This document shows positions 1-22,019 of a stretch of DNA of 64,000 nucleotides, one piece after another; within the stretch, counting starts at the first letter, position 1, and every line of letters begins with the position of its first letter. The translations under genes were made by a program, and so were the position numbers. Below the pieces are notes generated by a model that saw nothing but the letters and a program-made list of their open reading frames with translations, did no database searches and was not told where the DNA came from. The stretch is from Quercus robur (Eukaryota; Streptophyta; Magnoliopsida; Fagales; Fagaceae), in the NCBI RefSeq assembly GCF_932294415.1, contig NC_065545.1, positions 18,480,857-18,544,856 of the forward strand. Reading direction: 5' to 3'.

Positions 1-694
1 ATTCTTACAGTTGGATTTGCAGAGCATGGTAAAATATTGGTGTTGATGAAATTTAAGCTCAATTGAACAACCAGATCGAGCTCAAATTAAACCATTTTCA
101 CATATAAGCAAACCCATAATTTGTTTTAATATTTAATAGTTGAACTATATTGTTATTTTATAGTATTTGATATAGCTCATTGTGGAGATTTCTAATTTTT
201 CTTTTAACACATGACATATAATCTTTTTTATTATCTAATTTTGGGAAGCTATTCAATTTATGAATAATATCTAATTTATTTCATTAATTAACCTATGTAT
301 TTCTATTTCATATACATACTCCTATTTATTCTTGTTTATTATAAAAAATTATACTAATTGTTTAAACTATAAACCTTATAAACTTCAAACCACATGCCAC
401 AACATATATTCTAAAATTTAAATTTACAAAAAAAAGTTTCTTATAACACGCAATTTCTTATAAACATTTAAACCTTAGCGCCACATGTCCATCGATTCCC
501 CTTTCCCTCAAAATTTTGTTCACTTTTCCCTCTAACACTCCTTACTCCCAACTCCCTCGGAACACAATTCCCCTTTCCCTCTAATTTTTTCACTTTTCCC
601 TCTAACACTCCCAACTCACGCCAACTGACAACACGCAACTGCGCGGCAAGACACTAAAAAAAACAAAAGAAAAAAGCGCCTAAAGATCAAGACA
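1..694. other. AT-rich leader region with a direct repeat
   Basis: No gene recognised. Positions 498-555 and 570-617 are an imperfect direct repeat built on the words CCCCTTTCCCTC and CTTTTCCCTCTAACACTC. The stretch precedes the SEC14-like exon relic and could be the old 5' UTR or promoter of that copy. No TATA box can be assigned with confidence. Confidence 0.4.
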
Positions 695-893
695 ATTGAA
701 AAAAAGAATACCTAACTTTCTAAGTGAGACAAAGAAGAAGAAGAAGAGCAAGAGAACTGGCTTGATTGCTCTGACCAGTAACTCTCTCCCGACGAAGACT
801 TCTCCGATCTCAATCTCCTCCAGTTCTTTCGCCTCCAAGGCTCAGACAAGCACGGCAACCGCATTTTCCGTGTTGTGGGAAAGTACTTTCCTG
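695..893 (+). pseudogene. SEC14-like (CRAL-TRIO family) protein, degraded first-exon fragment
   Basis: Read in the right frame, positions 783-893 encode SPDEDFSDLNLLQFFRLQGS followed by DKHGNRIFRVVGKYFP. This closely resembles the region just before the CRAL-TRIO domain of plant SEC14-like/GDAP2-like proteins of the Arabidopsis At4g35750 type (recalled, not searched). Homology continues upstream (EEQENWLDCSDQ), but there is an in-frame TAA at about 777-779, and the still earlier part (IPNFLSET) lies in another frame. The exon ends at 893 with a clean GT donor. The rest of the gene is absent apart from the short exon at 1941. It is best read as a broken duplicate or captured fragment; a lineage-specific rebuilt gene is less likely. 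Confidence 0.68.
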
Positions 894-1940
894 GTAAACA
901 AACATGACTAAGACCTCTCTCGCTTGTTGCTTCACTTCGTTTTGTGTTTTTGTTATCTGGTTTTGTTTAATTTGTGTATCATTTTTTATTATTATTATTA
1001 TATATGATGATTGATATTGATTCTTATTGTTTTTAAGCAATTTGAGCTAGTTTGGCATCTGGGTTTTTGTTGGTTTTGAAAAAATAAAGTTCCTCCTTTT
1101 TTGTGATGTTGTAATTTGATTCGAATTTAAGTGATGTTGTGAGTAACTTTTAGGTTATTTTGGCATCTGGGTTTGTTTTGTTTTCATGTTTTATATGGAA
1201 GATAGTTTATTTTTGCTTAAGTTCTGTAAATCAGGTAAGGGGTTTGTTTGGTTTTATCTGAATTATTAGTTAGTGATTTTTACCGTATTCAATGAATTTT
1301 TTGTGTCACTGCTTATTTTTCTTATCATTCTCATTTTACTGGTACTTACGTTTAAATGCATGTTACATCTTGAATAATCAGTATTCTTTGAATGTTTGGG
1401 CTTATAGTCATATTAATCTGATATTTTCATAATTTGTTCCCATTGTCTTACAATACTTTGAATGCAAGTTTTCTGTTTATTTTTTGTTTCTAATTATATT
1501 AGCTGCAACCTCCTCAACTTCTTCTTTGTGTATGTTTCATTAAAGTTATAGAAACCATACTTATGGATTTTGGTTATTAATTTTTACTGTCCCCCCATGT
1601 CTACTAATTTATTTCTCCATAGCTTTTGTTTTTATACCTTAGCAATAATTTATTAGCTAAAATGATTTTATTGATGAATAAAAACAGCATGGGGGCAGTG
1701 TTGTAGATGTTTGTTGTGGTTCACATCGGACCATTCAAAACAAGGCTTTTGTTCATAAAATCAATTGTATGCCGTGAGTGATGTAAGAGAGTATCTCCTG
1801 TTTCTATAAGAAGTTTAAAAACTTAAAATTTTCTTGTTTGGGTAGTTTTATCTCCTAATGTTGTTGGATAACCTTTTTCTAAATGACATATTTTAATTAT
1901 TTGATGCCCTTATGAGATGCCTCTTTCTTTTATGGAGCAG

Positions 1941-2014
1941 CTGTGGTTGTGAGTGGAGAGAGGCTGGGCAGTGGCAGCAGAGCAATAGCAGAAGCAGGAA
2001 TTGGAACCCCACAG
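1941..2014 (+). pseudogene. SEC14-like second-exon stub
   Basis: An AG acceptor at 1939-1940 opens an exon-like stretch that joins in phase to the donor at 893. The join reads KYFP-AVVVSGERL, close to the family's KYFPARVVSAERL. After that the similarity stops abruptly and an unrelated reading (GSGSRAIAEAGIGTPQ) runs to a possible donor at 2015. Only about ten residues carry homology, so the identity rests on the match plus the correct phase and order after the first-exon relic. The CRAL-TRIO lipid-binding core is missing. Confidence 0.5.
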
Positions 2015-2779
2015 GTCGGTTAATGTGTGAACAATTCAATTGCATATATACAAATTTGGGCTTTGTTTCTTCTTTTCTTTAATGCCAATTCCTGTTGTAA
2101 TTGGCGTCTTGGTGGGGTAATTATCTACTTTTTCCTTTTTAGTTAAGATGTTATAATGATAGATAAGGCTATTGGTTTTGAGATCCAATCTCTATCTCTC
2201 TCTCTTCTTAGTTATTTGTTTTCTGGTTAACTTTTGTTCTCTAGAATTATTGGTTTTCAACTGGAATTGGTGTTTTCTTAAAGCATCAATTGTAAATTTT
2301 TATTGTTAGTTAAGAGTAAAGCTAGGTTTTTTTTTTACTAACGAAAGTTGGTAGCATCTGGTCCTTTGTCTATGCACTGGTTCTTTTATTGTTTGAATGT
2401 AATAGTCAATACATTCTTTTTCTTTTTAGTACCATCTATAACTCAGTTTATTTTTTCCTTTATCTCCTACCTAAATAATTTGAAAAAATGATTATAAAAG
2501 AAATCTTTTGTTTGCTGCTGTATTGGTGGTGCAGAGAGAAATAGACAATTTGGCAGGTTGATCTGTGTTGTTGCTTAAGGCCTAACTAACTGAAAATCTT
2601 TAGTTTCTAATATTAAAATACTAGACTCTTTTTTAAAATTTTAAAATATAATTTCTGTGTGTTCTGTCACACTATTTTACTAGCACAATGCAGACATATA
2701 ATATCACCTAGCAGGAAAAAAAAGACATATTCATCATTTTGTCTTTTGGATGCTTATATGGTTTACTTGATTATTGTAG
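2015..2779. other. intron-like AT-rich spacer
   Basis: T-rich sequence between the SEC14-like stub and the aspartic protease exon. Nothing coding is recognised. The stretch 894-1940 upstream is similar T-rich intron-like DNA. Confidence 0.4.
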
Positions 2780-2909
2780 GCTGTACTTTGCCAAACTTGG
2801 GCTTGGAGCCCCTCCAAAAGACTATTATGTGCAAGTTGACACAAGAAGTGACATTCTATGGGTGAATTGTGTTGACTGCAAGAGCTGTCCAAAGAAAAGC
2901 GGTCTTGGT
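2780..2909 (+). pseudogene. Aspartic protease (pepsin-like A1 family), single orphan exon
   Basis: The exon encodes LYFAKLGLGAPPKDYYVQVD, then TRSDILWVNCVDCKSCPKKSGLG. This is the exon around the first catalytic Asp of plant aspartic proteinase-like proteins. It keeps a TTGTAG acceptor at 2779 and a GT donor near 2909, but no other protease exon is present on either side. The catalytic motif normally reads DTG; here it reads DTR, which should abolish activity. With only one exon and a damaged active site this is a fragment. It follows the SEC14-like stub on the same strand, so the pieces could be spliced into one chimeric transcript, which is inference. Confidence 0.75.
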
Positions 2910-4116
2910 GTATGTGCTTCTAACTTTTCATTTAAATTGAATTTCTCTGTCTCTTTGCTAAAAGATGGTTCCTTAATTAGGTACTTTTTATGAGCTCTCC
3001 TTAAAATTGCATGTTAGATACCAACGTATTACCATGTGACTTACACACACACACACAATCTGATTGTATTATAGTCTGAGATTATTTCAATGACTTGATC
3101 CGTTCAAAGTTTGTAGTCAAAACTATTTGCAATTGCATGCTCCATCAATGTAGTGTGATGTATGATACAAAATAAAAATAACATTATTAACATTATCAAT
3201 TACTATAAAATTTGTTTGTTTCCTTAAACGGCTATATCTTTTATCCTAAAAATACAATTTTAATAGCATTTGGATAAGATGGCACTTCCACTCTACATAA
3301 CTATGGGGCGGTGGGTGAACTCATGAATTTAATCACTTTATGTTGGAAGTTTTCTCAGTACTAGAAATGTTAATTTTTTATTCCATAGTTGCTCATCAAC
3401 ATTGATAGAGAGAGTTGTAATTAGTATTGATTTTGCCCTTGCTTTTCTTTGTCATCAGGGTATTACCTTTTGTTGCAGTTGGGGAGTAGTTTTGGTTTGC
3501 AATATAGTTCTTAACCTGTGTGGTTATATTCTGTGTTTGCAATTTGGGAGGGATAGCAATGAGCCAAGCAATAATAGCCTAGAAGGTGCTCTACTGATCT
3601 GCTTTCTTCTTTTCTTACCCCACCCCACAATCTGAATTTGTAACTCCTACCCTTTTTTGAGTATTTTACCAAATGACTTTCTTCTATTGCTCCCTTTATA
3701 TGTGCTTGTTGCTGTCGCTGACACCATTATTAATTTGAGATATCAAAATGATTGTTTATCACTGAGAGAATGTATTATTTGTCATGACCTGGCTCCAACG
3801 TCTTACTGTAAAGTATTCTTTGAGGAATGTGACAATCTCAGATCAATTATTTGTGTTTTTATTTAAGTTTTACTTTATACATGGCATGCAAGCCATACTA
3901 GTACGAGGGATATAAGGTTCATTATAGAATGATGAATTTACAGTCAAGTACCCCTTTAAGAATCCATCTTAATTTGGGATCATAGTTTTTTCCTCATTAA
4001 GGCCAACTTCAAACTTGTACTATGTTCCAATCTTCACACTTGTACTTAAAAAAAAAAAAAATAAAAAATGTAAAAGGTTTGGTGTTGCTTCTTACAAGAT
4101 GGCTGAAGCATAGACA
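2910..4116. other. unassigned stretch between captured exons and transposase relic
   Basis: AT-rich with scattered short open frames. I see no domain, transposon end or RNA gene. If the CACTA-capture reading is right, this would be internal element DNA. Confidence 0.35.
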
Positions 4117-4883
4117 TTGATTTTCTTTAAATCGCCATATTGGAGCACACTTCTGTTACGTCACAATTTGAATGTGATGCATGTTGAAAAAAATATATTT
4201 GATAGCATTGTTATTAATACCGTTTCGGACCCTATTTCGGTTTGTCCAGTGGAATGGAATATTTTGGTACCGGCCGATTTCGGCGTACCGTTTCAGGGTG
4301 TTTCGGAGTTCTTAAAAAATAATTTATATATATTCTTGTAGAACATAAAATTGTCAATTCTAATAACTAAATAACTGAATATCAAATAATACAAATCATT
4401 TAGTCTTAACTCTTAAGTCTTAAACATCAATAACTTGAAATATAACATCAATTTAACATCACACAATAAGAAGATTACAAGACAATAACTAAATATCAAA
4501 TAATACAAGATTTACTCCTCCTCATCATCATCATCCATGAGAGAAGGATCAAATTCATCATCAAAAGAACTCCCAAATAAAACTTAAAAAAAAAAAAAAA
4601 AGTTAATAATAGGCCAAATCCGGTATCGGCCGAAATTTGCATCTCGGCCGGAATGATCGGAATGGACCGAAACGGCCTAAAATTTGACCCGAGGTGGAAT
4701 GTGGGGTATTTCGATATCAGTTTGCATACCAGTACGAAAAATTTCGGCCGTTCCAGCCGGAACGGAACGGAATCAATAACAATGTTTGACAGTGTGATTG
4801 GGACAATTATGAATATTAAAGATAAGACATGGAAGGAACTAATTTATTATTTTGTGTTCATTCCTGTCCAGAGCACAACATAA
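4117..4883 (+). pseudogene. TNP2-like CACTA transposase fragment, split by an insertion
   Basis: Before the insertion the reading is FFKSPYWSTLLLRHNLNVMH and then VEKNIFDS. After it, the reading resumes DSVIGTIMNIKDKTWKEL. Together these match the conserved block of plant TNP2 transposases (HNLDVMHIEKNVCDSIIGTL and GKTKD, from memory). The break falls in the middle of this block, at the hAT target duplication. No other transposase domain is recognisable; 4893-4975 may be a further decayed part. Confidence 0.75.
4206..4784 (-). mobile_element. Non-autonomous hAT-type element, 579 bp, nested in CACTA transposase
   Basis: The ends are inverted repeats. The left end reads CATTGTTATTAATACCGTT and the complement of the right end reads CATTGTTATTGATTCCGTT. 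They are flanked by an 8-bp duplication, TTTGATAG at 4198-4205 and TTTGACAG at 4785-4792, with one mismatch. Inside, on the minus strand around 4513-4580, is an open stretch reading SSFDDEFDPSLMDDDDEEE then stop. It looks like the acidic tail of a hAT transposase, so the element may be a deletion derivative. The termini are rich in TTTCGG and CGGCCG words. An internal 25-bp word recurs near 4363 and 4485. Confidence 0.8.
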
Positions 4884-5239
4884 ATCAAAATATATTTGTA
4901 GGACAAATCTGATGTTGGACATCTATCTAATAAGCATTTTCCACAAAATGGGAAGGAAACACAGGTTGTTTGTTTGTAATTGCTAAAAATTTCTTCATGC
5001 TTCTGTGTTAAAAGGACTATTTAATGTAATTCTTCTTTGTTTCTAATAAAGCATTTCTATCCTTTTTAGCTCAAATAAATAAATAAAGAGACTTGACTTA
5101 TTTGATAATGTTTATATTGTGATCGGCTTATATTTCAATTGGACAAGCTCGCTTTCCTTGATGGGAAGAAAATTTTATTCACTTTTGAGAAGAGATAGTA
5201 CAAAAGGCTGCTATTTTTGAATTTCAGACTACCATTTTG

Positions 5240-5482
5240 AAGTTGAAATTGGTATAGGAAACGTGGATCCACGTTCACGTTTTTTTTTTTTTTTTTTAAG
5301 CGCGTGAACAGTAACATCACATGAATTTATTGTACAAGAGACAAAATTCACTGTTCACGTACTGTTCACACACTGTTCACGGGTCTCACAGCACTATTCA
5401 CACATTTAAAAATTATTTTTCTACAGTATTTTTAGTTTTCAGTTTCAGCAAAAATAAGTTGTATCCAAATAGATCCATAATT
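5240..5482. repeat. MITE-like repeat with GTGAACAGT motifs, copy 1
   Basis: Carries a run of T (5281-5297), several copies of CTGTTCAC/GTGAACAG, and an end reading GTTTTCAGTTTCAGCAAAAA then GTATCCAAATAGATCC. A second, more decayed member lies at 18455-18681. Ends of the type GTTTGGATA suggest a short inverted-repeat transposon family. Target duplication not resolved. Confidence 0.5.
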
Positions 5483-5649
5483 TTTTTATGGATAAAATTT
5501 ATTAGAAAATAAGGATAGACCTTTCATGTATAGGATGTATATAAAAGGCATTTTTTTTAGGCTGTAAACAAAAGGTTTATCTAAAGAATACAAAGTGTTA
5601 TATGTTTATGTATTTCTTTTTATTTTTCTTTGAATTTTAGAATAACTAA

Positions 5650-6149
5650 TAATTTCATGACTATTTGCGAAGGCCAATTGTGGCCCTCGCAAATAATTTA
5701 GTATTAGTGAGGGTATATTTTTAACTCACACAAAAAATAAACTTTTTGCAAGAAATTTTTATTGTCCCTCGGAAATAATTTGGTGGGAACATTTCCCTCC
5801 AAATTTTTTTACATTTTAATGATTATTTGTGAAGGTCGATTTTAACCCTCGTAAATAATTTAGTATTAGTGACGGCATTTTTTTAATCGTCACAAATAAT
5901 ACACTTTTTGCGAGATATTTTTAATTGTCTCTCGCAAATAATATGGAGGAAAAATTTCCCTCCAAAATATTAGTATTTGTGACGGCTATAACGCATAATT
6001 GCGACAGCTTTTTTTGTTGGTCACAAATATTTCACATTTTACCAAGTATTTGCGAGGGCTTTATTTTGCCATCACAAATAAGGTTTTTTGAGACGGCTTT
6101 TTGGGTCCGTCAAATTTCTTGGTCGCTAATAGGCATTTTTTTTGTAGTG
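5650..6149 (+). repeat. CACTA subterminal repeat field and right terminus
   Basis: Many direct and inverted copies of TTTGCGA(C/G)GGC and TCGCAAATA occur here, as expected for transposase-binding repeats at CACTA ends. Two neighbouring blocks (about 5655-5812 and 5815-5965) are diverged tandem copies of one unit of roughly 155 bp; both contain AATTTAGTATTAGTGA and TTTCCCTCCAAA. The field ends at GTAGTG, 6144-6149. The next three bases, AGA, would be half of a 3-bp target duplication. Confidence 0.75.
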
Positions 6150-6154
6150 AGACC

Positions 6155-9683: not shown

Positions 9684-10581
9684 GAATTTTGGTTTTGGTT
9701 ACAATAGTTCATGTTCTTAATTTTGTGCCATATTTCTTTCTAACTTTACACATGATTTAGAGGTATCAGTTGGTATAGTCACACGCTCTTTATTTAGACA
9801 TTCACCATACACACATTAAACATGGTTTAGAGGAGTCAATTGGCCAAGTAATGAGTAATAAACTAATAATAGTAGCACACTCTTTGTTACAAACTAGTTC
9901 GTAACCCTATGTATTTGCATGAATATACTTAAAAGATATACATTAAAATGTATAGTATTATTTTTATATATAATATAAATATTATTGATGGTCATTTTTA
10001 TATATATTTTTTTAACTCTTCAAAAAGTCTTGTAAGAATATTATTAGGTAGAAAATATAAATTGTCTATTTTTATTTTTTTTATTTTTTTTTATGTTCAA
10101 TAATTCTAGACTCTTTGGTTTTTATACGCAATAACTCACTAGAATAGATATTTATGATGTGATCTCACATTTAACTTCAAAATTAAGAAATAAAATTCGC
10201 TCTATAATAATAAACAATTTAAGACATATGGCGCAAAGTTGGACTTTAATTGTAGAATCTAATTGGATTTTTTCTAAGTTTTGCATACATATATATATAT
10301 ATATATTATTCATGGTACACACATTACTGCCATAGACTGAGTTAAAAAGGGAGGGTATGTAATAAAATTTTATACTGAGAAATTTGGAAAGTTCATTCAA
10401 TCTGTAAATCACATCAATGACAATACTTACTTATTTTTTTCAATAAAGATACATAATGCAGATTCAACCCAAAAAAAGAAAAAGATGTTACAAAAGCAAT
10501 GATACGTTGCCAACAACTAAAACCTATTAAAATCGATCCAATGAAACAAAGCATGCAGATTTACGTTGACCTGGAGCACCT
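9684..10581. other. region downstream of the peroxidase gene
   Basis: AT-rich; includes the 3' flank of the peroxidase and a short (TA)n tract near 10290-10307. Nothing else recognised. Confidence 0.4.
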
Positions 10582-21843: not shown

Positions 21844-22019
21844 ACATACAGACATACTCAAATGGCTTGGATAGTAAGTGAACTCCTATATTTTATAGAT
21901 AAAGATTAGGAGTAAATTTTTTTCATCACTACAAGTCTAGAATAAACCCCAATTAGCTGGTCAGTTAAGCTAAGTTCAAGATTAGTTCATAATGATCCTA
22001 ATCCTACACACCATGCCAT

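Follow-up and report, generated by a model that had tools for sequence, protein, structure and literature searches.

Host-gene DNA has been described inside CACTA transposons of several plants, and its capture has so far been argued largely from finished products. In the published text on which this comparison draws, the soybean element Tgm-Express1 is described as a carrier of five host-gene fragments, several of them unrelated and with introns kept (PMC1947982), and the Tpn1 family of Japanese morning glory as En/Spm-related, non-autonomous copies with a captured genic interior (PMC5105172). Pack-CACTAs of Arabidopsis, rice, and maize mobilise host DNA between CACTA ends (excerpts of PMC8903248 and PMC13317346), and in Chenopodium CACTAs the captured fragments lie 5' of the transposase reading frame; the part of that paper used here already notes capture-prone regions and cites abortive gap repair (PMC8978399). 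For animal Pack-TIRs, the accessible text reports gap filling (FoSTeST), i.e., template switching with microhomology at the joints, mentions a similar proposal for Pack-MULEs, and calls a test in plant Pack-MULEs worth exploring (PMC8277862). These features recur in an element of Quercus robur whose right part lies in the window, i.e., the whole stretch of 64,000 nucleotides analysed here (C41:18480857-18544856, NC_065545.1), which was searched within the 786-Mb genome (C1, C4, C35, and similar names denote contigs, L034-L049 extracted stretches, and the window copy is the element on C41). It is a gene-capturing CACTA of a kind already known, here well resolved: very probably a non-autonomous element into which DNA of three or more host genes has been copied, and in which captures in the leader arose by template-switching repair.

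An initial annotation, made from the window alone, had placed fragments of a SEC14-like gene and of an aspartic protease inside one CACTA element with a right terminus at 6149 and a left end outside the window, and leftward extension bears this out. The left end lies at C41:18473354 (window -7502, i.e., 7,503 bases before position 1), where the terminus CACTACAAGAAAAG has AGA directly before it; the right end reads GTAGTG at 6149 and is likewise followed by AGA, and the element, with its 3-bp AGA target-site duplication, is 13,652 bp long. No left terminus, such as the annotation had named as contrary evidence, was found downstream of 2909. The terminal inverted repeats are of the CACTA type (CACTACAA at -7502 and TTGTAGTG ending at 6149), and subterminal repeats occur near both ends: TTTGCGACGGC has five matches in the window at no more than one mismatch, all within 5664-6097, where 0.09 would be expected in the window, and the left end keeps few exact copies of the motif (two by pattern). 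A search with the left end gave 61 rows (40 of 72 candidates scored), of which 40, a lower bound for the genome, start at one of the first five terminal bases. When both flanks were joined with one AGA into a 200-bp query, 38 of the 40 scored rows (126 candidates) crossed the flank joint at 76-87% identity, the remaining two being the element's own flanks; the insertion target is therefore a repeat present uninterrupted elsewhere. For an old local pseudogene cluster with a CACTA inserted beside it there speaks only what the window alone could show, namely that it does not contain the left end. This reading was rejected and now deserves next to no credence, because both CACTA ends and the matching AGA enclose the gene pieces, the same order of pieces recurs between CACTA ends on C4, and the target repeat is uninterrupted elsewhere.

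The C4 sister (C4:19826604-19835051, 8,448 bp), in which SEC14 is again followed by protease, is the kind of copy that the initial annotation had proposed to seek; parent genes, which it had likewise proposed to seek, exist on C35 for SEC14 and on C1 for the protease. The two SEC14-like exons annotated at 695-893 and 1941-2014 are both present with revised limits: the first begins only at 726-730, positions 695-725 being the element's own leader, and the second ends at 1966, beyond which 1967-2014 is again leader, with a GT at 2015. The SEC14 segment is 93-95% identical to the C35 donor (L034 5566-6108 and 6917-7611; E values of 8.7e-154 and 6.8e-215), in which three open pieces jointly specify a CRAL_TRIO_2 protein (PF13716, E 2.9e-32). 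The donor intron has 808 bp more than the captured segment, which could be a later insertion in the donor or a stretch skipped at capture. The protease exon lies at 2780-2909, exactly as annotated; its translation of 43 residues hits TAXi_N with E 1.5e-9 and Asp with E 2.1e-5, and the captured segment is identical to the C1 donor at 907 of 932 compared positions (94.9% counting gaps), with similarity stopping inside both introns, i.e., with intronic breakpoints. Further protease-like open pieces follow in order at the C1 locus, two of them matching TAXi_N and Asp. Counting itself, the exon has only four matches in the genome, at E 1.9e-60 to 4.8e-55, and is present in three element copies; these values and those of the SEC14 matches exclude chance resemblance. 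In addition, there is a third capture that the initial annotation did not report, of intronic sequence from a C38 scramblase gene, exon sequence of which occurs in sister L037 (PF03803, E 1.2e-7); the C4 and C5 sisters align to the window copy across this segment too. Because introns are retained, capture took place at the DNA level, and at the donor loci additional exons or other gene sequence are still present. As in Pack-CACTAs, host DNA lies between the ends, the donors stand elsewhere (C35, C1, and C38), and more than one copy has been mobilised.

The SEC14 site is especially informative with regard to mechanism, as its unoccupied state survives in sister elements. In L035, the leader reads AAGTGAGAC-CTGGGAGAGT-GAGAGGCTG, and L036 and L037 are closely alike; in the window copy and in C4, the only two copies found with SEC14 cargo, the middle 10 bases of this leader have given way to approx. 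1.23 kb from the SEC14 gene on C35, in which GAGAC and GAGAGGCTG occur at the two corresponding points. Of the leader-bearing elements read, six lack SEC14: three of them (L035, L036, and L037) are thus unoccupied, and in the other three (L038, L039, and L046) the leader is rearranged at this site. Microhomology was assessed at four joints, three of which exceed chance at the 2% level: at the left SEC14 joint, only 14, 25, and 17 of 5,000 donor positions are as good (for L035, L036, and L037, respectively), at the right SEC14 joint, a match of 9 bp occurs at 1 of 4,859 donor positions, and at a joint with CBS-type cargo in L038 (see below), 48 of 3,240 positions are as good as its 4 bp. The unoccupied site in sisters, the 10-bp replacement, and the two-sided microhomology together favour template switching over the mechanism described for Pack-CACTAs, in which neighbouring CACTAs flanking host DNA lose their facing ends, fuse, and enclose that DNA (tandem insertion followed by aberrant excision; set out in the review PMC13317346 and favoured in PMC8903248, as far as the consulted text of both extends). 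Such a process could explain other captures in this family, whose unoccupied sites are not seen on both sides, whereas it does not predict an uninterrupted sister leader with a 10-bp replacement; three sisters read through the SEC14 point, no terminal repeat is seen at the SEC14 joints, and the three donors in one element are parted by sequence common to other copies. Tandem insertion is accordingly regarded as improbable. Under template-switching repair, a break or stalled fork would arise in the leader, ahead of TNP2, repair would copy an unrelated host gene by switching at short shared stretches, and the enlarged element would then move and multiply by ordinary CACTA transposition in trans, with the captured exons now as passengers. 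Repeated switching would also give two patches from one donor in donor order within one element, as found for the scramblase donor (L037 5434-6852) and for a histone deacetylase donor (C40:37056500-37067499, L048+L046+L049, 4821-6123).

It also appears that the captures can be placed in order. The left joint of the protease is identical in the window copy, L035, L036, L038, and L039, so a single protease capture is the simplest assumption; the protease probably entered first (seven examined copies) and SEC14 later (two copies), and the protease exon of L038 and L039 was lost by deletion. Several observations weigh against this account of mechanism and order. The left protease joint shows only 2 bp of exact microhomology, as expected by chance (718 of 5,000 positions), an unoccupied protease site is seen on the left side only and an unoccupied scramblase site on neither, and the flanks of the C4 sister give no matching target duplication (ACA/ATC). 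Moreover, the protease, which should be the older capture, differs less from its donor (25/932) than SEC14 does (57/1,229), and the protease tree is weakly supported, with the donor as the only outgroup. By a rough argument, the conflict in divergence is eased by the comparison of the window copy with C4, which differ about twice as much in SEC14 (22/1,241) as in the protease (8/943). The C5 copy differs from the protease donor at 24 of 803 positions.

The same leader holds other cargo elsewhere in the genome. With window positions 590-1100 as the query, 12 matches were obtained, which is a lower bound; one is the SEC14 donor, and host-gene DNA seems to be present in every one of the 11 leader-bearing copies, with six apparent donors in all, three of the copies (C35:17.78M, C5:2.12M, and C3:26.02M) being judged from search coordinates only. 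Whereas the window copy and C4 carry SEC14, protease, and scramblase intron, L035 and L036 carry protease, L037 carries scramblase (apparent donor C38:26.47M, 88% identical to L037), and L038 and L039 carry protease intron plus a first exon of CBS type, which also adjoins the leader in the three copies judged from coordinates. The apparent donor of this exon (C40:37.6M, 86%) is one that we take to be a CBS-domain gene; Pfam gave no match for the short exon. L046 contains a histone deacetylase fragment (PF00850, E 1.1e-25; apparent donor C1:14.09M, 96-97%) and an anamorsin- or methyltransferase-like piece (apparent donor C2:10.46M, 97%, or C38:44.87M, 91%), which is ambiguous, with Methyltransf_11 above the cut-off and Anamorsin_N below its own. 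Copies with common cargo probably share one capture. L035 and L036 (C4:19.18M and 19.07M) lie about 115 kb apart and share 95-98% identity along most of 6.7 kb, which may reflect segmental duplication or local transposition. Sequence from the left-end region of the element lies in inverted orientation beside the deacetylase-carrying element (C40:37066442-37067475, L049).

The region in which these captures sit is upstream of the TNP2 frame, as seen in L038, where the transposase of the family is recognised by PF02992 (E 1.6e-99) and PF13963 (E 2.2e-17). It is tempting to regard this leader as a true capture hot spot, refilled by microhomology-guided template switching even in copies with a long transposase frame, a proposal that is put forward tentatively and at somewhat less than even confidence. 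If it holds, host-gene capture would be a routine repair by-product of the family, independent of tandem insertion, and the order of captures could serve as a kind of fossil record.

The possibility should also be considered that the captured exons are expressed together as a chimeric gene with a useful protein product. The splice dinucleotides that the initial annotation had listed as intact (893/894, 1940, 2779, and about 2909) are indeed so, and fragments in soybean Tgm-Express1 are spliced into chimeric transcripts (according to the portion of PMC1947982 used here); a chimeric transcript across the captured exons is thus conceivable. A fused SEC14-protease protein, however, is unlikely because the donor start codon of SEC14 lies outside the captured segment, the SEC14-protease splice joint is out of frame and meets a stop after 19 codons, the protease DTG is changed to DTR in the window copy, C4, and C5, and exons have diverged from their donors about as much as introns (7/194 vs. 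50/1,035 for SEC14; 4/130 vs. 21/802 for the protease), i.e., the captured exons are without visible constraint. An in-frame TAA also interrupts SEC14 exon 1 in the window copy, though not in C4. An expressed gene with a useful product is therefore very unlikely, and any effect on the host would be exerted through chimeric or small RNA rather than a fused protein.

Regarding the transposase of the window copy, the TNP2 relic that had been annotated on the plus strand is present in much reduced form: only about 146 bp (about 85 + 61 bp) remain, split by a 579-bp foldback element that entered the remnant later. A Pfam search with a 40-residue peptide from this remnant gave no TNP2 match; its assignment comes from DNA alignment to the open frame of L038 that holds the PF02992 match, with the aligned stretch (9910-9990) about 90 bp downstream of the matched part. 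The L038 frame itself stops at 10077, with later domains in further open pieces. From its sequence, the C41 element would be non-autonomous owing to the broken TNP2. Among its other sisters, the C5 copy is left-truncated (equivalent to window 2143-6149) and the C39 copy is internally deleted (3,666 bp, TTT/TTT duplication). Stretches missing from C4 were considered as possible insertions in the window copy, and this was rejected for -5658 to -4532, which is largely present in C39, and for -1092 to 170, parts of which occur in L037-L039; both are therefore deletions in C4. Positions -4532 to -2318 are likewise absent from C4. The short terminal motif CACTACAA has six matches in the window (2.45 expected), at 6142 and at 21927, 24675, 31143, 49972, and 59075. 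The coordinates of all features are collected in Table 1.

Table 1. Features of the CACTA element and its captures in the window.
Feature	Position	Strand	Remarks
Right 6,149 bp of CACTA element	1-6149	+	Left 7,503 bp upstream at C41:18473354-18480856; homologous to C4, C39, and C5 sisters
Element's own leader, upstream of TNP2 frame	452-725	+	Common to L035, L036, and L037, partly L038/L039
SEC14 (CRAL_TRIO_2) capture from C35	726-1966	+	Exon 1 3' part 726-893, intron, exon 2 5' part 1941-1966
Left SEC14 joint	726-730	+	5-bp microhomology GAGAC, L035/L036/L037 vs. donor L034
Right SEC14 joint	1958-1966	+	9-bp microhomology GAGAGGCTG, L035/L037 vs. donor
Element's own leader, 3' part, then GT at 2015	1967-2014	+	Without SEC14 in L035 and L036; altered in L037 and L046
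Aspartic protease capture from C1	about 2012-2954	+	Intron 1 part, exon 2 (2780-2909), intron 2 part
Sequence between captures, taken as element's own	2955-3212	+	Parts common to L038 (to 3031), L046 (3053-3145), and L037 (from 3153)
Third capture, scramblase intron from C38	3213-3892	+	3213-3811 91.4% and 3816-3892 89.6% identical to L045
TNP2 remnant, left piece	4121-4205	+	4120-4200 92.6% identical to L038 9910-9990
Foldback element	4206-4784		579 bp, 8-bp duplication TTTGATAG/TTTGACAG, absent from C4 sister
TNP2 remnant, right piece	4785-4845	+	4782-4837 matches L039+L042 10020-10072
Right subterminal repeats and terminus	5653-6149	+	TTTGCGACGGC matches; terminus common to C4, C5, and C39
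Right AGA target-site duplication copy	6150-6152		AGA matches left flank

One genome here preserves the donor together with a capture site in both its occupied and its unoccupied form, so that each joint can be followed at single-base level; the 10-bp replacement in place, two-sided microhomology, several donors within a short region, and double patches speak for repair by template switching in this plant CACTA. In comparison with Tgm-Express1, the oak family adds what its sister elements reveal, namely a capture site left unoccupied and the succession of captures, and it is known from DNA alone. In contrast to Tpn1, the cargo sits amid native leader, and this holds also for L038, where there is a long TNP2 open frame. 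The donor genes differ from those of the Chenopodium CACTAs, and several located donors have contributed to one family. Compared with animal Pack-TIRs, this is a multicopy plant CACTA with sisters unoccupied at the site. Finally, internal template switching accounts better for the SEC14 capture than does tandem insertion with aberrant excision, the mechanism in print for Pack-CACTAs, and the SEC14 site offers a direct test between the two printed models of capture.

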